Below, one piece after another: positions 46,654-54,772 of a DNA stretch of 64,000 nt (within the stretch, counting starts at the first letter, position 1; each line of letters begins with the position of its first letter). Both the position numbers and the translations under genes were made by a program. The notes beneath the pieces are model-generated. The model was given only the letters and a program-made list of their open reading frames with translations. It made no database searches and was not told where the DNA came from. The stretch is from Filomicrobium insigne. GTDB taxonomy: Bacteria; Pseudomonadota; Alphaproteobacteria; Rhizobiales; Hyphomicrobiaceae. Where the stretch lies: contig NZ_FNJC01000003.1 of the NCBI RefSeq assembly GCF_900104305.1, positions 496,001-560,000 on the forward strand, read 5' to 3'.

Positions 46654-47742
46654 CTATTCGAGAGAGTCGTGGTAAGGCTTTTCGCTGAGGTTTGACCAGG
46701 AACGATGTTTCGCCCGGAAGGCCATGAATGCATCGTGAACTTTCTTCGTACGCGGATCCTTGGCGGCTTCTTCGTCCAAGACCTTGAAGGTAATTTCACG
46801 AAGCTTCGTCACGACATCTGGCGGGAGAACGTCCGCCTTCACACCATGGTTCTTGACGAGATCCTCAAGCGCATCGGCGTTGTTGGCTTCAGACCAGGCA
46901 TAGCTTTCCAGGTTGCAAGCCATAGCCGCCGTCTTGACGATTTGCTGGAGGTCTGGTGGCAGCGACTCCCAAGCCTTGAGGCTGATAAGGAGTTCCGTAA
47001 CGTTGGAAGGCTCATGCCAGCCCGTCGTGTAGTAGTACTTCGCTGCGTTCTGCAGTCCCAGTCGGCGATCCTGAAACGGTCCGACGAACTCGGCAGCATC
47101 GATAACGCCGCGCTCCAGAGCCGGGAAGATTTCGCCACCCGGCAACAGCTTCACATCGACGCCAAGCTCCTTGTAGACCTTCCCCGCAAGGCCCGGGATA
47201 CGCATCTTGAGGCCCTTGAAGTCGTCGACCGACTTGATCGGATTGCGGAACCAGCCGGTCATCTGCAAGCCCGTGTTCCCCATCGGGAACGCGATAAGAC
47301 CGAGCGGTTTGTACAATTCGTGCCAGAGCTCGAGACCGCCGCCGTGATAGAGCCATGCATTCACGCCTGAAAAGTTCAGGCCGAATGGGACGGTCGTAAA
47401 GTACTGAGCAGCGAACAGTTTGCCGGCCCAGAAGTAGGCGTTGGCGGCATTCATTTCGACGGTGCCGGCCTGGACTGCATCGAAACCTTCAAGAGCAGGG
47501 ATCAACTCACCGGCTGCAAAGTGCTGGATTTTGAGGCGGCCACCTGACATTGTCTCGACCTTCTTACAGAAGTCGGTCGGACTGCCCGGCCCTACTGTGT
47601 AGAAAGGCGCTCCCGGTGGGTACGCGTTCGTCATCTTAAAGCTGAACGAGCTCTGTGCCCTCGCGATCGCTGGTGCGGCGACGACTGCAGCGGTGCTTGC
47701 AGACGTCACACCGGCGGCCTTTAGAAAATCCCGTCGTTTCAT
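46654..47742 (-). CDS. dctP: TRAP transporter solute-binding protein, TakP-like, Tat-exported
   Basis: The periplasmic ligand-binding subunit. The 362-residue protein starts MKRRDFLKAAGV, a twin-arginine signal followed by a hydrophobic stretch ending APAIARAQ. The mature part has features I associate with the TakP/mannitol-chloroaromatic cluster: AGKLFAAQYFTTVPFGLNFS, LYKPLGLIAFPMGNTG, MRIPGLAGKVYKELGVDV and PGGEIFPALERGVIDAAEFV. Studied TakP binds 2-oxo acids with a cation, so a 2-oxo or hydroxy acid is a reasonable guess, no more. It is divergent from the hydrolase gene over 244 bases. Confidence 0.88.
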   Translation of the reverse strand: MKRRDFLKAAGVTSASTAAVVAAPAIARAQSSFSFKMTNAYPPGAPFYTVGPGSPTDFCKKVETMSGGRLKIQHFAAGELIPALEGFDAVQAGTVEMNAANAYFWAGKLFAAQYFTTVPFGLNFSGVNAWLYHGGGLELWHELYKPLGLIAFPMGNTGLQMTGWFRNPIKSVDDFKGLKMRIPGLAGKVYKELGVDVKLLPGGEIFPALERGVIDAAEFVGPFQDRRLGLQNAAKYYYTTGWHEPSNVTELLISLKAWESLPPDLQQIVKTAAMACNLESYAWSEANNADALEDLVKNHGVKADVLPPDVVTKLREITFKVLDEEAAKDPRTKKVHDAFMAFRAKHRSWSNLSEKPYHDSLE

Positions 47743-47986: not shown

Positions 47987-49570
47987 ATGCTTCGCACACG
48001 CACATGCCTCGGCGGAATGGTGACCGCACCGCACCATCTGGCGGCGGAGGCTGGCGCCACAATCCTGCGTGAGGGTGGCAATGCCATCGAGGCTATGATC
48101 GCTTCAGCAGCAGCCGTAGCGGTCGCCTATCCACACATGAATGGCATTGGCGGAGATGGCTTTTGGGTGATTTCCCGCCCCGGCAAAGAGCCGGTCGGCG
48201 TACGCGCATGTGGACCAGCTGCGGCGAGAGCGACGAAGGCCTTCTACGAAGAGCATGGTGATTCCGCGATACCGACGCGAGGACCGCGTGCGGCGCTGAC
48301 CGTTGCCGGAGCCATCTCGGGATGGGCGGAAGCGCACAGTCTGGCGGCTGAGGCCGGAGGGCGCGTGCCGATTGCACGGTTGCTTGAAGACGCCATCCGG
48401 CATGCGCGCGATGGTGTGCCTGTCACGGCATCACAGGTCCACCTAACGCAAGCCAAGTGGAGCGAACTGAAAGACGTGCCGGGCTTCACGGCAACGTTCG
48501 CCTCCGATGGACCGCCGAAGCTCGCGCAAGTCCTGAAGCAACCGGCACTCGCAAGCACGCTGCAACAGCTCGTGGATGCGGGGCTTGATGATTTCTATCG
48601 CGGCGATCTCGCGCGCAAGCTAGGAGCCGGATTGGAGGCGACGGGCAGCCCTCTGAGTTTAAATGATCTCGAAGCATTCCGCGCAAAGCGCGTGACACCT
48701 GCCACCGTCCGTCTCGCCGTTGGCGATGTCTACAACATGCCGCCCCCGACCCAGGGCGCGTCGGCATTGATGATCCTAGGTGTGTTTGAGCGTCTCGGCG
48801 TCAAAGAGCGCGACGGGTTCGATCACATCCATGGTCTCGTTGAGGCGACAAAGCGGGCCTTCATCCATCGCAACGCTCACTTGGGCGATCCAGATCGCAT
48901 GGGCGACATCTGGAAAACATGGCTCGAACAGGCGACGCTCGATCGCGAAGGCGCTGCGATCGACACCGCCCGTGCAGCGCCGTGGCCTCACACGGCAAAG
49001 CCTGGCGATACGATTTGGATGGGCGCGGCCGACAGACACGGCAACGTTGTCAGCTATATCCAGAGCATCTACTGGGAATTTGGTTCTGGACTGGTCGTCC
49101 CTGACACTGGAGTCGTATGGCAGAACCGGGGAGCGAGCTTCACGCTTCACCCAGGTCCAAACGAATTGGAACCCGGCCGCTTGCCGTTCCATACGCTGAA
49201 CCCCTCTCTCGCGCGGCTAAATGATGGGCGCACGGTCGCTTACGGCACGATGGGAGGCGAGGGGCAGCCGCAAACACAGGCCGCGATCTTCACCCGCCAC
49301 GTTCTCTTCGGACAGGATATGCAGGCTGCCGTTTCCGCACCGAGATGGCTACTCGGCCGGACGTGGGGAGAAGACTCTACAAACTTGAAAGTCGAAAGCC
49401 GGTTCGCGCCGGAACTGATCGATGCGCTGCGGAAGGTTGGTCATGACGTCGAAGTCGTTGAGGCTTACGACGACATGATGGGGCATGCCGGCATGGTTTC
49501 GATCGGACCGGACGGCGTCATTTCAGGTGCCACGGATCCACGCGCTGACGGCGCAACGGCATCCCTTTAA
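47987..49570 (+). CDS. gamma-glutamyltransferase-family Ntn-hydrolase (HpxW/oxamate hydrolase-like)
   Basis: A 527-residue member of the gamma-glutamyltransferase superfamily, which matures by self-cleavage before a Thr. Visible features are AAEAGATILREGGNAIEAMI, HMNGIGGDGFWV, the putative nucleophile Thr342 in GDTIWMGAADRHGNVVSYIQ, and LNPSLARLNDGRTVAYGTMGG. In classical GGTs the cleavage site reads TTHxSVVD; GDTIWMG is instead what I recall from the HpxW (oxamate amidohydrolase) branch. No signal peptide is visible, unlike periplasmic GGTs, so it is likely cytoplasmic. It is divergent from the TRAP genes, suggesting that the imported acid or a derived amide may be its substrate. Confidence 0.8.
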   Translation: MLRTRTCLGGMVTAPHHLAAEAGATILREGGNAIEAMIASAAAVAVAYPHMNGIGGDGFWVISRPGKEPVGVRACGPAAARATKAFYEEHGDSAIPTRGPRAALTVAGAISGWAEAHSLAAEAGGRVPIARLLEDAIRHARDGVPVTASQVHLTQAKWSELKDVPGFTATFASDGPPKLAQVLKQPALASTLQQLVDAGLDDFYRGDLARKLGAGLEATGSPLSLNDLEAFRAKRVTPATVRLAVGDVYNMPPPTQGASALMILGVFERLGVKERDGFDHIHGLVEATKRAFIHRNAHLGDPDRMGDIWKTWLEQATLDREGAAIDTARAAPWPHTAKPGDTIWMGAADRHGNVVSYIQSIYWEFGSGLVVPDTGVVWQNRGASFTLHPGPNELEPGRLPFHTLNPSLARLNDGRTVAYGTMGGEGQPQTQAAIFTRHVLFGQDMQAAVSAPRWLLGRTWGEDSTNLKVESRFAPELIDALRKVGHDVEVVEAYDDMMGHAGMVSIGPDGVISGATDPRADGATASL

Positions 49571-50132
49571 AGTCGCCGACCTCAGAAAATGACCGAGGCG
49601 GCGTGGTGGAATATCACGCACGTCGCCTCGCATTTATTGCTGCGATTATTATTTTTATTTCCCTTTGCAGAGCGTTCAAGTGCCCGAAACGACTGCGTTG
49701 GCCCAATGGAAATGGGCTTCCCTCGCCGCGCCGCGAGATTTTCGCGGCCATTAGAGATGGCGTGAACATTTACATGGCAACACTGCCAATTCGGCAGTCA
49801 ATTCCACACTGATTGATACCGCTTTTATCTCGCGAAAGCCCGCCAATGCTGCGTTGCAGCAGATTGGCACAGATCTTGTTCTTAAGCAGATCGCATGTGC
49901 GAACTCTACGACCGTCATTCGCACTGCACCCGCGGTTGGAGCCGCTCGGCAAGGAGCTCCGCCGCATCGGGGGCCTTAGTGGCCTTCGGGATAGAAGCGG
50001 CGCGTTCGGGCAGCAACTGACATCGGGCGCGCCGCACCAAAAATTCGCGGGGGCACGATTGAACGACTCTAACAGAGCCACGATCCACAGCGTGACGAGA
50101 ACCGCCTCCAGGCGTACCTGGGAGTTGCGGTC
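49571..50132. other. 562-base regulatory region upstream of the redox cluster
   Basis: No gene is supported; a 69-codon frame (49603-49812) and a minus-strand frame of 103 codons look like chance. Just after the hydrolase stop is an imperfect stem (CGCCG.CCTC with GAGG.GGCG, 49572-49604). Further on are two perfect 6-bp inverted repeats, ACTGCC-5-GGCAGT (49782-49798) and TGCTGC-3-GCAGCA (49848-49862), which are candidate regulator sites for the redox genes. I found no clear FNR (TTGAT-4-ATCAA) site. Confidence 0.4.
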
Positions 50133-52148
50133 ATGAACGTCACGGCCCGCGCCGAAACACTGAAAGACGCATCGACCCTCGTCGACGGAAAGCGCGGCAT
50201 CGCACAGGACCCCATCGTCGTTATCGGCGGTGGTCCGGCGGGCATTCGCGCCGCTCAGGAACTGTCACGTGCCGGCAAGAACGTCATCGTATTCAACGCC
50301 GAACGCTGGCGTCCTTATAACCGCGTGAAGCTCACACCTTTGTTGTCCGGAGAAGTCCAGCTTGGACAAGTCACGCAAAGCTTGGAGTTTTCCGGGCCAG
50401 GAACGGTCGCCGTATATTCCGGTCATAGCGTCGTCGACATAGACCGCACCCATAAGGTCGTCACGACCGGCCAAGGCAGCATCTGGCCCTATGGTAAGTT
50501 GATCATCTGCACCGGTTCACGCGCCCACGTTCCCCCCATTCCGGGAGCGCACAAAAATGGCGTCTACACGTTCCGCAATTTCGATGATGTCGAAAAGCTT
50601 GTCGCGCGCTCGTTTCGCGCCAGACGAGCCATCGTCATCGGGGGTGGACTTCTGGGCCTGGAAGCCGTGCGCGGTATGGCGGACCGGGGCGTCGACACGG
50701 TTGTTGTTGAACACGAAAGCTACCTCATGGCGCGCCAACTCGATGCGTGCGCCGGTGAACTCTTGGCACGTGACGTCGAAGCAATGGGCATCGGCGTGCG
50801 CACGGGAAGCACGGTCAGCCGCATCGTTGGAGAAGATCGCGTAACCGGGTTGGAGCTGGTATCCGGCGAAGTGCTGGACTGCGATACAATCATAATCTGC
50901 ACCGGCATCCGCCCGAACATGGAACTCGCCCGCGATGTCGGCTTGGCCGTAGGACGCGGCATCAAGGTCGGCCCCACACTTCAAACGAGCGATCCTGACG
51001 TCTATGCCGCTGGCGAATGCGCGGAGTTCAACGGACACGTCTATGGTCTGGTGGGACCCGGCCTGGACCAAGCGGCGATCGCCGCCCGCCACATAACAGG
51101 TCAGGCTTCGACATACGACGGTTCGATGCCCGTGACGAAGCTGAAAGTCATCGGCACCGATGTCTTCAGCATGGGCGATACCGAACAACTTGATCAGCGC
51201 CCAGAACTCGACAGCCTGACCTATGCCGACGCCGACGGCAAAATTTATCGCCGCCTGGTCTTGAAGCGTGGCCGCCTTGTCGGTGCGGTCGCGATCGGCG
51301 ATTGGTCTGAAATCAATCGGCTGCAGGAAGCAATCAGGAAGCAGATGCTTCTGCTGCCCTGGCAGCGGTTCCGCTTCAAAGCGAATGGCATCGTCTGGCC
51401 GGAACGCGAACCTCAATCAGTGCGTGATTGGCCGCGCGCCGCGACCGTTTGCAATTGCACAGGCGTAACACGCGGCCAGATTGGTGATGCGATTGCGCTT
51501 GGTGCGGGATCACTCGACGACATCAAGCGCGACACCGGCGCGTCGACCGTGTGCGGAAGCTGTAAAATACACATCGGCGAATTGTTGGGAGCGCCGCCGA
51601 AACGCGAACCTGCCGGCGCGGCAACGGCAATCGCGGTGACATCTGGCATAGCAGCGATCCTCGCGGCGCTGATATTGGTTCTGCCGATCTGGTCGACAGC
51701 GACCACGATCACGGGACGCGGCTTACCCGAACTCCTCTTTCTTGATGGTATCACGAAACAGATCAGCGGCTACGTCTTGCTGGCCTTGTCCGTACTCGCC
51801 GTCGTTTTATCAGTGCGTAAGCGTGTCCCCATCCTGCGCAAGCTCGGAGGTTACGCGGGCTGGCGCGTGTTCCACATCTTCATGGGCGTTACCGCGCTGG
51901 CGGTCCTCGCCGCGCACACCGGATTTCGTCTGGGAGACAATCTCAATCTTTGGCTGATGGCGAGCTTTCTAACCCTCGCGCTAGCAGGCGCGGCGGCAGG
52001 AATAGCAACGGCTTTGGAACACCGGTTGTTCGGTAATGCAGGGACGGCGGCGACACTAAAGGATGCATCGTTCTGGTTGCACCTCTTGGCCTTTTGGCCT
52101 CTGCCGACGCTGCTCTCGCTGCACATCCTCAGCGTCTATTTTTATTGA
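50133..52148 (+). CDS. NAD(P)H/FAD oxidoreductase - [2Fe-2S] - di-haem membrane domain fusion
   Basis: A 671-residue fusion. Residues 28-400 are a pyridine nucleotide-disulfide oxidoreductase module like the start of NirB: FAD site VVIGGGPAGIRAA, NAD(P) site AIVIGGGLLGLEA, and YAAGECAEF. Residues 440-477 carry CxC and CxxC (C440, C442, C474, C477), the pattern of BFD-like [2Fe-2S] domains. Residues about 499-671 form five membrane helices. Helix 3 holds H581 and H595 and helix 5 holds H650 and H664, each pair 14 apart. That is how ferric-reductase/NOX- and cytochrome b-type proteins hold two stacked haems. The siroheme nitrite-reductase part of NirB is absent. Inference: electrons move from cytoplasmic NAD(P)H across the membrane. 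The multihaem cytochrome gene starts 11 bases downstream. Confidence 0.8.
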   Translation: MNVTARAETLKDASTLVDGKRGIAQDPIVVIGGGPAGIRAAQELSRAGKNVIVFNAERWRPYNRVKLTPLLSGEVQLGQVTQSLEFSGPGTVAVYSGHSVVDIDRTHKVVTTGQGSIWPYGKLIICTGSRAHVPPIPGAHKNGVYTFRNFDDVEKLVARSFRARRAIVIGGGLLGLEAVRGMADRGVDTVVVEHESYLMARQLDACAGELLARDVEAMGIGVRTGSTVSRIVGEDRVTGLELVSGEVLDCDTIIICTGIRPNMELARDVGLAVGRGIKVGPTLQTSDPDVYAAGECAEFNGHVYGLVGPGLDQAAIAARHITGQASTYDGSMPVTKLKVIGTDVFSMGDTEQLDQRPELDSLTYADADGKIYRRLVLKRGRLVGAVAIGDWSEINRLQEAIRKQMLLLPWQRFRFKANGIVWPEREPQSVRDWPRAATVCNCTGVTRGQIGDAIALGAGSLDDIKRDTGASTVCGSCKIHIGELLGAPPKREPAGAATAIAVTSGIAAILAALILVLPIWSTATTITGRGLPELLFLDGITKQISGYVLLALSVLAVVLSVRKRVPILRKLGGYAGWRVFHIFMGVTALAVLAAHTGFRLGDNLNLWLMASFLTLALAGAAAGIATALEHRLFGNAGTAATLKDASFWLHLLAFWPLPTLLSLHILSVYFY

Positions 52149-52158
52149 GGTCGCACCC

Positions 52159-53586
52159 GTGAGCCGCACCGCAAAATTATGGATCTTGTGGGTAGTTTCA
52201 ACGCTCGTCGGCGGCGGCATCTTGCTGGCTGCGATGATCTACGGAGGACCTCTGCGCGCCAGCCTTCTAATTGGGAAGACTACGAGTGGTCATCACCAGA
52301 TCGAACTGGCCTGCGAAGCCTGCCATACTTCACCGTTTGGTGGAGGAGAGGTGCTGCAGGAAGCCTGTCTCAGCTGCCACAAGGCCGAGCTTGCCGCCGC
52401 CAAGGATTCACACCCGCTCAAGAAGTTTCGCGATCCTCGTAATGCCGACCGATTGGCCAAGCTCAACGCGACGCAATGCGTAACCTGCCATCGAGAGCAC
52501 AAGCCGGACATCACGGGGCCGATGGGAGTCACGCTGCCCGGCGACTATTGCGAACTGTGCCACGAGAAAGTCGGCAAGGATCGTCCGAGCCACTTGAATA
52601 TTGGCTTTGATACTTGTGCGTCCGCAGGGTGCCACAACTACCATGACAACCGCGCTCTCTATGAAGATTTCTTGGAAAAGCACGCCGGCCAGCAGGATGT
52701 GAAAGAGCTGGCAATCTTCAAGCTGCGCGCGGAAAAGAATGAGCCGCTTGAACCGCGCGAACCGTTGATCACTATCGGCGTGGCCAATGCACCAGCAGAC
52801 AAGCTGAGCGACCAAAAGATCAACAATGATTGGTTGGCCACCACCCACGCACAAGCCGGTGTGAATTGTGCGGGCTGTCACGCACCCGACAAAAAGGACG
52901 CAGCCGAAATAGCTGACGCCTGGACCGACAAGCCCAGTACCGCCGTCTGCACGACATGCCATGCGCCCGAAGCCTCGTCCTTCACCCAAGGCAAGCACGG
53001 CATGCGATTGGCGAAGGGGCTGAAAAGCGAAGTCGCAGGCCTCTTCGGCATTTTTCGCGACAAGCCGCTGACGCCCATGCAGGTCTCGATGGCCCGCTTG
53101 CCGATGTCGAGCAAGGCCCATGCGGAACAACTCACCTGCACAAGCTGTCATGGCGCCCACACATTCGATGCCATGAAAGCCCAGGTCGAAAGCTGTACGT
53201 CCTGCCATGCAGACGAGCACACGAAGGCCTATGAGCGATCGTCTCATTACAAGCTCTGGCAAGATGAAATCGCAGGCGTCAAACCGAAGGGAACGGGCGT
53301 CAGTTGCGCGACCTGCCATATGCCACGGCAATGGGTCGAAGATCCTGCGACCTACAGTGAACGCATCGTCGCAAACCACAATCAGAACGACAATCTGCGA
53401 CCCAACGAAAAGATGATCCGCTCCGTCTGCATGGAGTGTCATGGACTCGGTTTTTCGATCGATGCCCTCGCCGATCAAAACCTCATCAAACGCAATTTTT
53501 CGGGACAGCCCGCCGTGAAGGTCGAAAGCATCGACTGGGTGAAGAAGCGTGTTGAGGAACGGGAGAAAGCCAAGGCCAACCAATAA
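52159..53586 (+). CDS. membrane-anchored undecahaem cytochrome c
   Basis: A 475-residue protein with one N-terminal helix (LWILWVVSTLVGGGILLAAM, about 7-26) as anchor or uncleaved signal. Eleven haem c motifs follow: ten CXXCH (C52, C70, C107, C131, C237, C264, C327, C346, C383, C424) and one CX4CH at 153-159 (CASAGCH). The first five cluster in residues 50-160, a linker follows (160-230), then the other six. The C-terminal half (CATCHMP, extra histidines, RSVCMECHG) recalls octahaem HAO- or nitrite-reductase-type cytochromes, but I cannot assign an activity. GTG 52159 is chosen as start; the upstream frame overlaps the previous gene. It should act in the periplasm, taking electrons from the di-haem membrane protein. 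Confidence 0.85.
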   Translation: MSRTAKLWILWVVSTLVGGGILLAAMIYGGPLRASLLIGKTTSGHHQIELACEACHTSPFGGGEVLQEACLSCHKAELAAAKDSHPLKKFRDPRNADRLAKLNATQCVTCHREHKPDITGPMGVTLPGDYCELCHEKVGKDRPSHLNIGFDTCASAGCHNYHDNRALYEDFLEKHAGQQDVKELAIFKLRAEKNEPLEPREPLITIGVANAPADKLSDQKINNDWLATTHAQAGVNCAGCHAPDKKDAAEIADAWTDKPSTAVCTTCHAPEASSFTQGKHGMRLAKGLKSEVAGLFGIFRDKPLTPMQVSMARLPMSSKAHAEQLTCTSCHGAHTFDAMKAQVESCTSCHADEHTKAYERSSHYKLWQDEIAGVKPKGTGVSCATCHMPRQWVEDPATYSERIVANHNQNDNLRPNEKMIRSVCMECHGLGFSIDALADQNLIKRNFSGQPAVKVESIDWVKKRVEEREKAKANQ

Positions 53587-53650
53587 TGGCCATCAAAGAA
53601 AACGTCGGAGTTTCGAGAAGTCTAACAGGTGGTGAAAAGGAGAGAAGGAC

Positions 53651-54232
53651 ATGATCAAATTTTCGAAGTCGGCTGTTGTAGCGGTCCTGTCGGGTGCTGT
53701 TGTGCTGTGCGCGGGTGCGGCGGCGGCAGTCAACGCCAAAGGGGTCGCATATGAAGACGTCGCCGACATGCTGATCGCAGTCATGGTCGCCGACCGCACC
53801 GTATACACCAAACAGGTCGTTGGGCGTCTGACCACTAAAGACAAGGTCATCACGGCAAGTGAGCACTTCGAAGACAACAAGGCGCTCCCTTTGCCGGCGC
53901 AGATGTTCCGATTCGGTGCTGAGATGGTCGCCGACAAGACTGACAAGTTCTCCTACTCGCTCTTGTCGCTGTGGCCGATCAACAAGCAAAACGCTCCGCG
54001 CACAGACGCTGAAAAGGCTGGCTTGGAATTCGTATCTAAAAACAAGGACGAGAAGTACACCGCGGTCGAAGAGCTCGGCGGCAAGAAGTACTTCACCGCC
54101 GTCTATGCAGACGTTGCCGTGGCGCCGGTTTGTGCATCTTGCCACAACGGTCACAAAGACAGTCCGCGCACGGATTTCAAGTTGGGAGACGTGTTGGGCG
54201 GCGTCGTGATCCGCATTCCGATGACCGAGTAA
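53651..54232 (+). CDS. DUF3365 (Tll0287-like) monohaem cytochrome c
   Basis: A 193-residue periplasmic protein with a cleavable signal (AVVAVLSGAVVLCAGAAAAV, about 8-27). The Tll0287-like/DUF3365 domain ends with the haem c motif CASCHNGH at residues 161-168, then SPRTDFKLGDVLGGVVI, the usual arrangement. The domain occurs alone and as the extracytoplasmic sensor part of signalling proteins; PAS-like folds with a haem have been described for the family. Here there is no signalling domain, so an electron shuttle or a soluble redox/gas-binding protein is likelier. It is 64 bases after the undecahaem gene, with a GAGAAGGAC site. Confidence 0.82.
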   Translation: MIKFSKSAVVAVLSGAVVLCAGAAAAVNAKGVAYEDVADMLIAVMVADRTVYTKQVVGRLTTKDKVITASEHFEDNKALPLPAQMFRFGAEMVADKTDKFSYSLLSLWPINKQNAPRTDAEKAGLEFVSKNKDEKYTAVEELGGKKYFTAVYADVAVAPVCASCHNGHKDSPRTDFKLGDVLGGVVIRIPMTE

Positions 54233-54313
54233 GGAACAACGTAACCAAGCGTGTGCTCAGTGCGCTGGGCAACAAGCGCGCGGCGGTCGGCCATTGGACA
54301 ACGTCGGAGATAA

Positions 54314-54772
54314 ATGATGACACCGGAGCAAGTCAAACTCGTCCAGGAGAGTTTCAAGAAAGTCGTGCCGATCGCACCACAGGCGGCGGATATTTTCTAC
54401 ACGCGCCTGTTCGAGATCGCGCCTGAAGTTCGTCCTCTCTTTCCCGAAGACCTTTCAGGTCAGAAGGATAAGTTGATGAGCATGCTGGCAACTGCGGTCA
54501 CCAATCTTCACCAGATCGAGAAGATTTTGCCGGCCGTGGAAGATCTCGGACGTCGTCACGTCGGATATGGCGTAACGGCCGAGCACTATAAGCCTGTGGG
54601 TGCCGCGCTCATCTACACTCTGGAGAAGGGGTTGGGTGATGACTTTACGCCAGAGACGAAAGAAGCCTGGCTCGTTACGTATACAACTCTCGAAGGCGTA
54701 ATGACCAAAGCCGCCGAAGCTGCGGCCGCCCCTCCTAAAAAGAAAGGGTTCTTCGCAAAAATGTTTGGCTAG
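54314..54772 (+). CDS. single-domain bacterial globin
   Basis: A 152-residue globin without a reductase domain. Aligned by eye with E. coli Hmp, it has Tyr B10 (Y29 in DIFYTRL), Gln E7 (Q50 in SGQKDKL) and the proximal His F8 (H82 in LGRRHVGYGV). Tyr B10 with Gln E7 is the pocket of flavohaemoglobin-type globins that bind O2 tightly and oxidise NO. The C-terminal tail APPKKKGFFAKMF is basic and hydrophobic and might associate with the membrane. No signal peptide, so cytoplasmic. ATG 54317 is nearly as good a start (GGAG 7 bases upstream). It is the last gene of the redox cluster. Confidence 0.9.
   Translation: MMTPEQVKLVQESFKKVVPIAPQAADIFYTRLFEIAPEVRPLFPEDLSGQKDKLMSMLATAVTNLHQIEKILPAVEDLGRRHVGYGVTAEHYKPVGAALIYTLEKGLGDDFTPETKEAWLVTYTTLEGVMTKAAEAAAAPPKKKGFFAKMFG

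Follow-up and report, generated by a model that had tools for sequence, protein, structure and literature searches.

The Filomicrobium insigne DNA analysed here (64,000 nucleotides; hereafter the window) contains four consecutive genes, g1 to g4, encoding a flavoprotein with a membrane domain, an eleven-haem cytochrome, a DUF3365 haem protein and a globin. Our reading, held tentatively and at somewhat less than even chances, is that they form a nitrogen-controlled transmembrane electron relay that handles nitric oxide (NO) or its kin while nitrate is being used. Support is good for the gene set and the electron route, whereas the substrate is an inference. The genes and an upstream promoter-like site are positioned as follows.

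g1, 50133..52148, + strand: NirB-like FAD/NAD(P)H module, BFD [2Fe-2S] domain and C-terminal membrane domain
g2, 52159..53586, + strand: undecahaem cytochrome with a GTG start and an N-terminal helix (presumed membrane anchor), periplasmic
g3, 53651..54232, + strand: stand-alone DUF3365/Tll0287 (sCache_heme) monohaem protein with an apparent signal peptide
g4, 54314..54772, + strand: single-domain globin, no signal peptide seen (presumably cytoplasmic)
Promoter-like site, 49865..49880, + strand: sigma54 (-24/-12) type, TGGCAC-N5-TTGTT, one mismatch to the consensus used

The intergenic gaps are 10, 64 and 81 bases. An earlier reading of this DNA, made from the sequence alone, had described four same-strand genes with these gaps; coordinates, strand and gaps agree. 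Motifs for the cofactors and families that it named are all found, namely FAD/NAD(P)H, [2Fe-2S], four membrane histidines, eleven haem motifs, DUF3365 and globin. Its interpretation as a whole is partly supported.

Conservation and distribution of the gene set

Homologous loci were collected by scanning GTDB species genomes with six exact peptide patterns of g2 as seeds. The scan yielded 73 loci, hence 74 with the window, with 41-65% identity over the best segment. Because the scan was seeded by exact g2 patterns, these loci are closer relatives and co-occurrence is conditional on g2. They are also not independent. Two metagenome bins contribute two loci each (L066/L068 and L065/L077), and 70 g2 sequences form 41 groups at 70% identity.

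g1 adjoins g2 in 73 of the 74 loci, the sole miss (L073) being at a contig end. Adjacency of g3 is observed in 71 loci, and the three misses (L050, L096, L097) all lie at contig ends. According to record names, the carriers belong to Alpha-, Beta- and Gammaproteobacteria, Rhodopirellula, Acidobacteria, Thermoanaerobaculia and Dadabacteria; cultured carriers, also by record name, include Microbulbifer, Catenovulum, Hahella and roseobacters. Pairwise divergences of the four proteins are correlated (r 0.76-0.88, versus permutation maxima of 0.09-0.22). This shows that the genes travel as a unit, such a correlation being expected of jointly inherited genes. Chance co-occurrence was rejected in view of the 73 further loci, the near-constant adjacency and the correlated divergence.

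The proposal that the four genes form one system is thus borne out by conserved adjacency and correlated divergence. The search of gene neighbourhoods shows that the genes clearly do co-occur elsewhere, and far outside Alphaproteobacteria too, so that the idea stands. The notion of a fixed set of four has to be amended: the g1-g2-g3 adjacency holds, but the globin, present in 31 of the 74 loci, is an exchangeable accessory.

Within the phylum, the gene set is rare and scattered. Strong g2 matches were found in five of eight same-genus genomes, with a sixth, weak match (E 1.7e-4). In a sample of 299 genomes from the phylum, g2 was detected at E <= 1e-60 in three, the own genome included. Strong matches to the membrane domain of g1 (E < 1e-30) were found only in the same three genomes, of 200 searched; five more were weak.

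A flavin module linked to a membrane domain

g1 is a protein of 671 residues. Profile search identified Pyr_redox_2 (E 1.3e-58), Rubredoxin_C (E 3.8e-23) and Fer2_BFD (E 1e-13) domains. The FAD/NAD(P)H module spans residues 25 to 430 approximately and is followed by the BFD [2Fe-2S] domain (438-485) and by the membrane domain. The AlphaFold2 model has a mean predicted local distance difference test score of 90.5 and shows hydrophobic helices at about 497-516, 539-564, 574-596, 604-627 and 636-670, the last with a break at 655. All 50 Foldseek matches listed, of 1895, are flavoproteins. No Pfam family matches the membrane domain of the window protein; among 28 aligned members, weak matches (E <= 0.1) to DUF4405 and cytochrome b561 were obtained for 10 and 7 proteins, respectively. 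No credible solved relative of this domain was found, the best match (E 0.18) being a cystine transporter.

Histidines 581, 595, 650 and 664 show no variation across an alignment of 54 g1 sequences, window included. They are also invariant in the set of 28 sequences, which covers all three g1 architectures. We therefore consider the membrane haem domain, g2 and g3 as the core of the system. His581 and His595, like His650 and His664, are spaced by 14 residues. Such a spacing in both pairs corresponds to that of two stacked b haems. By analogy with ferric-reductase-type proteins, the domain would carry two b haems, probably ligated by His581/His650 and His595/His664. The motifs needed for a route from NAD(P)H through FAD, [2Fe-2S] and two b haems to a multihaem cytochrome are therefore all in place, as the sequence-only reading had proposed.

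The fusion of flavoprotein, Fe-S and di-haem parts described in that reading is present in the window, but it is not general. An untruncated g1 is available for 69 loci, and the FAD and [2Fe-2S] modules are present in 54 of these proteins and missing from 15; this count leaves aside the contig-edge loci L035, L066, L099 and L101 as well as L073, which starts its contig and has no g1. Three of the 15 FAD-less proteins were scanned. Those of L062 and L069 have an N-terminal GPP34 domain and the 177-residue protein of L056 matched nothing. Three Dadabacteria g1 proteins, with 177-202 residues, are barely more than a membrane domain. The replacement of the flavin module by GPP34 (Golgi phosphoprotein 3-like) in L062 and L069 is odd, as it joins a domain of lipid-binding type to one for electron transfer.

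The eleven-haem cytochrome

g2 has 475 residues, with ten CXXCH motifs, one CX4CH motif and an N-terminal helix (residues 3-28). All eleven haem motifs are kept in the 70 sequences aligned, four fragmentary loci of the 74 being excluded. Outside the motifs, eleven histidines are invariant in this alignment and two more, H46 and H175, are found in 97% and 95% of the sequences. The protein is composed of a five-haem N-terminal part and a six-haem C-terminal part resembling hydroxylamine oxidoreductase (HAO). The C-terminal half aligns to the HAO of PDB entry 4n4j (E 4.5e-11, with a high bias term). The two best Foldseek matches are also HAOs (1fgj, E 3.6e-4; 6t5e, E 1.2e-3), with TM-scores of merely 0.23-0.31. 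The model is poor in the N-terminal half, where block averages are 38-62 for residues 31-40 and 41-170.

The GCAHCH motif of 4n4j, which we take to be that of the catalytic P460 haem, has no haem-motif counterpart in g2 in the one profile alignment made, while the flanking haems before and after it do have counterparts. No cysteine is conserved between g2 residues 280 and 327 in the 70 family sequences. Loss of the HAO catalytic haem is probable, not proven, because the octahaem nitrite reductase alignment to g2, which is weak (first domain 7.3 bits), has a different register and because g2 scores just above the cut-off of PF02335 (cytochrome c552; 24.4 versus 24.1 bits). With an HAO-like C-terminal half from which the catalytic haem is apparently absent, g2 is probably a conduit, partly related to the HAO family.

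A small cytochrome c gene is added in 22 of the 74 loci; two of these proteins were scanned, and both match cytochrome CBB3-type/class I families. In one metagenome-assembled locus (L065:8001-9479), g2 is broken into two open reading frames (ORFs), by a possible frameshift, stop or sequencing error. One PDB match, 6r2q, contains a multihaem chain labelled 'cystathionine beta-synthase' by its depositors and was not used.

A stand-alone DUF3365 protein lacking the axial cysteine

g3 matches PF11845 (E 7.7e-20; 72.2 bits versus a cut-off of 24.1). All 71 g3 sequences have the CXXCH motif. Besides this motif and the signal-peptide region, no alignment column of the 71 sequences contains cysteine in at least five of them; g3 thus lacks the axial cysteine of Tll0287 types. 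No solved relative of g3 was identified by sequence.

A g3 profile was compared with eight fetched DUF3365 loci, with E-values that refer to 45 sequences. It matches the DUF3365 domains of three methyl-accepting chemotaxis proteins and two cyclases (22.4-70.6 bits). These five signalling-type stretches have no additional cysteine in the aligned parts shown. No match was obtained to the members in L114 and L120, nor to the cysteine-bearing paralogue encoded elsewhere in the same genome:

G000:C8:164732-165142 (locus L001): second DUF3365 protein of the genome, different subgroup, extra cysteine

By analogy, the extra cysteine of this paralogue falls where Tll0287 types have their axial ligand. 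g3 is therefore best described, from its sequence, as an unusual combination, stand-alone yet devoid of the cysteine like the signalling kind. According to the available text of PMC12889525, a signalling-type member without the axial cysteine binds NO tightly and releases it slowly, while a stand-alone protein with the cysteine releases NO quickly. Its Cys-to-Ala variant does likewise (same source). The haem of g3 may bind NO.

Exchangeable cytoplasmic gas-binding proteins

g4 is a globin (profile search, E 7.8e-16). The nearest PDB entries, 3wfw and 3s1i, were deposited as haemoglobin-like flavoproteins. Y29, F43 and Q50 are found in 100% of 31 globin sequences and H82 in 96%; presumably these residues occupy positions B10, CD1, E7 and F8. 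The distal Tyr/Gln/Phe and the proximal histidine thus confirm the flavohaemoglobin-type pocket noted earlier.

Besides the 31 loci with a globin, 4 encode a truncated globin and 11 a hemerythrin, with never two kinds in one locus. In the Microbulbifer and Simiduia loci (L078, L080, L081, L086-L092, L103) the hemerythrin gene is upstream of g1, whereas in others a globin is downstream. A gas-binding protein accompanies 42 of the 54 FAD-bearing g1 proteins and none of the 15 FAD-less ones (Fisher p 3e-8), an association inflated by relatedness, since 13 of the 15 FAD-less loci form five sequence groups and two are unplaced. The occurrence of a gas-binding protein only with FAD-bearing g1 suggests that the flavin module serves this protein as well as the membrane.

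Probable nitrogen control of the operon

Upstream regions of g1 were searched with the sigma54 pattern TGGCAY-N5-TTGCW, allowing at most one mismatch. The set contains 56 loci, 18 of the 74 being dropped because the g1-start motif was unmatched or too little upstream DNA was available. As a family, the loci have the features of a sigma54/NtrC regulon. Sigma54 sites precede g1 in 19 of the 56 loci (15 groups at 70% g2 identity), versus a mean of 1.04 and a maximum of 4 in 200 draws of random segments from the same loci. The reverse strand gives 0, and among spacers of 2 to 8 bases all except 5 give 0-1. Allowing two mismatches reduces the excess (26, versus a mean of 9.2 and a maximum of 16). 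Elsewhere in the loci, 17 of 526 upstream regions of other genes contain a site, and six of these 17 belong to nrtA- or nasT-type genes. In 11 of the 19 loci, NtrC-like palindromes (at most 3 mismatches in 12) lie no more than 220 bases upstream, the control having a mean of 2.18 and a maximum of 7 (500 draws). Finally, tandem ANTAR-type hexaloop hairpins are observed in 4 of the 56 leaders (control mean 0.275, maximum 2).

The genomic context points in the same direction. Nitrate transport or NasT-NasS type genes are located near 7 of the 74 loci, in seven sequence groups. In L040, NasT- and NasS-type genes precede the operon, and NrtA-B-C-type and NIR_SIR genes follow it (gene names assigned from family and order). 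ANTAR regulators are encoded in 25 of 40 carrier genomes versus 49 of 150 in a phylum sample (Fisher p 0.0008 without the own genome); the 40 genomes were chosen by us from the 73 loci and include L049, L056 and L102 from outside the phylum, whereas the 150 background genomes are of one phylum. The window genome also has a nitrate assimilation cluster, identified by Pfam domains and gene order:

G000:C10:766001-786000 (locus L111), another contig: nas cluster with a sigma54-like site before nrtA

This cluster contains genes for NasT, NasS, NrtABC, a split nitrite reductase (FAD protein and NIR_SIR protein), a reductase, a nitrate reductase with BFD and a CysG-like protein. The sigma54-like sequence before nrtA is TGGCACAACTTTTGTA. 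In the window itself, a TRAP-type solute-binding protein gene (46654-47742, - strand, named by eye) has a sigma54-like site upstream and is a second possible target. No Rfam family was detected at E <= 1 in window positions 49500-50250.

Weighing the proposed function

The link to nitrogen oxides made in the sequence-only reading is upheld by the nitrogen-control promoters, by the nitrate-assimilation neighbours and by the likeness of g3 to signalling DUF3365 domains. That reading included neither the regulation nor the HAO-like half of g2 with its apparently absent catalytic haem. A number of observations nevertheless weigh against a relay that handles NO in nitrate users. The histidines of g2 are enough for eleven bis-His haems, so that no open haem is identified in this protein. 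g3 has an invariant methionine, Met85, that could ligate the haem; as a sixth ligand, it would favour electron transfer over gas binding. Stand-alone DUF3365 proteins are given redox roles in the accessible part of PMC12889525. Moreover, because the Cys-to-Ala variant described there is fast-releasing, absence of the axial cysteine does not by itself predict tight NO binding. Together, Met85 and this variant weaken the idea of g3 as a simple open-haem protein. No gas-binding protein was found in 28 of the 74 loci.

On the regulatory side, the excess is less marked with a second NtrC pattern, which is shorter (9 of 19 loci; control mean 3.09, maximum 8). The number of single ANTAR-type hairpins, 11 in 56 loci, stays within the control range (mean 5.55, maximum 11), and one of the tandem hairpins (L032) scores on the reverse strand too. 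The window has neither tandem hairpins nor a counted NtrC site, its sigma54 site has one mismatch, and its nas cluster lies on a different contig from the operon. FNR/NnrR-like sites were found in none of the 56 loci (in 2 when the pattern was relaxed) and NsrR-like sites in 2 (shuffles 0.6, maximum 3); of the 19 sigma54 loci, 2 have a NorR-like site with one mismatch. Since none of these sites is enriched, promoters of NO regulators were rejected and the operon looks nitrogen-controlled, not NO-induced.

Three other functions were considered. g2 might be a periplasmic assimilatory reductase that turns nitrite, hydroxylamine or NO into ammonium for growth, with g1 as a NirB-related NAD(P)H input. 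The best NCBIfam match of the cytoplasmic part of g1 is indeed the N-terminal half of NirB (TIGR02374 positions 1-467, 408.8 bits). The matches of C-terminal g2 to HAO and octahaem nitrite reductase, and of g2 to PF02335, would fit, as would the promoters and the neighbouring genes. However, the catalytic haem position carries no haem motif in the 4n4j alignment and no cysteine is conserved between residues 280 and 327. In addition, the cluster from NasT-NasS to nitrate reductase elsewhere in the genome includes a nitrite reductase. The operon is therefore not the only nitrite reductase that the genome could have, and dependence of the genome on it for nitrite reduction was rejected. We regard a reductase as unlikely.

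An equally improbable view is that of a general redox valve or exporter, which would dispose of excess NAD(P)H electrons by passing them to O2, to periplasmic cytochromes or to acceptors outside the cell. It agrees with the potential bis-His ligation of all g2 haems, with the small cytochrome c of 22 loci and with the presence of PF00115 (COX1-family) proteins in 20 of 20 carrier genomes tested. But nitrogen-control promoters are hard to account for in this way, and no porin-cytochrome conduit is seen among 27 annotated neighbour ORFs besides g1, a small share of all. Single outer-membrane proteins, of FadL and alginate-export types, are found in L052 and L100.

Least probable, and in our view very unlikely, is a periplasmic sensing device in which g3 is a gas or redox sensor set by g1-g2 and reporting to a receptor: the match of g3 to chemoreceptor and cyclase domains, the histidine-kinase cluster in 4 of 74 loci (L039, L044, L060, L103) and the PilJ-type sensor domain after the globin in L099 speak for it, but a kinase, receptor or cyclase is not a general neighbour among the loci and an eleven-haem relay would be costly for sensing.

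Comparison with known systems

The closest precedent for the proposed nitrogen-controlled relay is the Bradyrhizobium narK-bjgb-flp-nasC operon (PMC4724949). From the available portion of that paper, a single-domain globin and an FAD/NAD(P)H flavoprotein, under NasS-NasT and nitrate control, counter NO formed by assimilatory nitrate reduction. Unlike the present genes, this operon as described there lacks a membrane domain, a multihaem cytochrome and a DUF3365 protein. In a nasT mutant under denitrifying conditions, expression of narK and bjgb was raised, not lowered (PMC6759348, available part). By analogy, the operon of the window may be viewed as a comparable cytoplasmic pair joined to a membrane and periplasmic arm.

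Parts of other systems are recognized. The FAD/NAD(P)H, rubredoxin-reductase C-terminal and BFD [2Fe-2S] half of NirB is shared with g1. In g1, however, the membrane domain with its two putative b haems replaces the sirohaem/4Fe-4S half; g1 has no NIR_SIR match and remains below the TIGR02374 cut-off (578.35 bits). As for HAO and the octahaem and NrfA nitrite reductases, g2 aligns to HAO in its C-terminal half and has HAOs as its top two Foldseek matches, but differs by the missing haem motif at the aligned catalytic position, the extra five-haem N-terminal part and the N-terminal helix.

Transmembrane NAD(P)H oxidoreductases of the NOX/ferric-reductase type have two b haems, histidine pairs 14 residues apart and a cytoplasmic flavin. 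g1 would share the three features; its flavin module is nonetheless different, with a [2Fe-2S] cluster, and it has a fixed multihaem partner. No ferric-reductase Pfam model is among the matches of the window protein and the 28 aligned members. g3 belongs to the sCache_heme family, with its covalent haem motif, and matches signalling-type members. It stands alone but lacks the axial cysteine ascribed to Tll0287 and its stand-alone target in the accessible text of PMC12889525. The words operon and multiheme are absent from the main text of that paper.

A description of the gene set was not found in the literature searched, which comprised mainly titles and beginnings of abstracts, with supplements and most subscription papers outside it; nor is it described in the available parts of PMC12889525, PMC4724949, PMC9230427 and PMC6759348. 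The families are known. New to us are their combination, an HAO-like cytochrome apparently without the catalytic haem, and the nitrogen control.

Proposed mechanism and significance

In the relay that we favour, g1 would take electrons from NAD(P)H via FAD and [2Fe-2S] on the cytoplasmic side. The electrons would then cross the membrane through the two b haems to the anchored g2. Acting as a wire, g2 would re-reduce the soluble monohaem protein g3 and, in some species, also the small cytochrome c. The haem of g3, without axial cysteine, may be the site of NO binding. The flavin module of g1 may in addition re-reduce the cytoplasmic globin, truncated globin or hemerythrin. The system would be made under nitrogen limitation or in the presence of nitrate, through sigma54/NtrC and, in some species, a NasT leader as well. 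Its most likely role would be removal of NO or related reactive nitrogen species formed in nitrate or nitrite use.

Such a system ties together three questions: the role of stand-alone DUF3365 proteins, the handling by aerobes of NO from nitrate assimilation, and the route of NAD(P)H electrons to periplasmic multihaem cytochromes. The regulatory prediction makes it testable in the cultured carriers Microbulbifer, Catenovulum, Hahella and roseobacters. In a broader and more doubtful view, the operon would encode an undescribed, widely transferred NAD(P)H-driven machine guarding nitrate assimilators from NO on either side of the membrane, in which an HAO-like cytochrome lost the catalytic haem and turned into a wire, while catalysis moved to a small Cache-fold haem protein akin to NO sensors.

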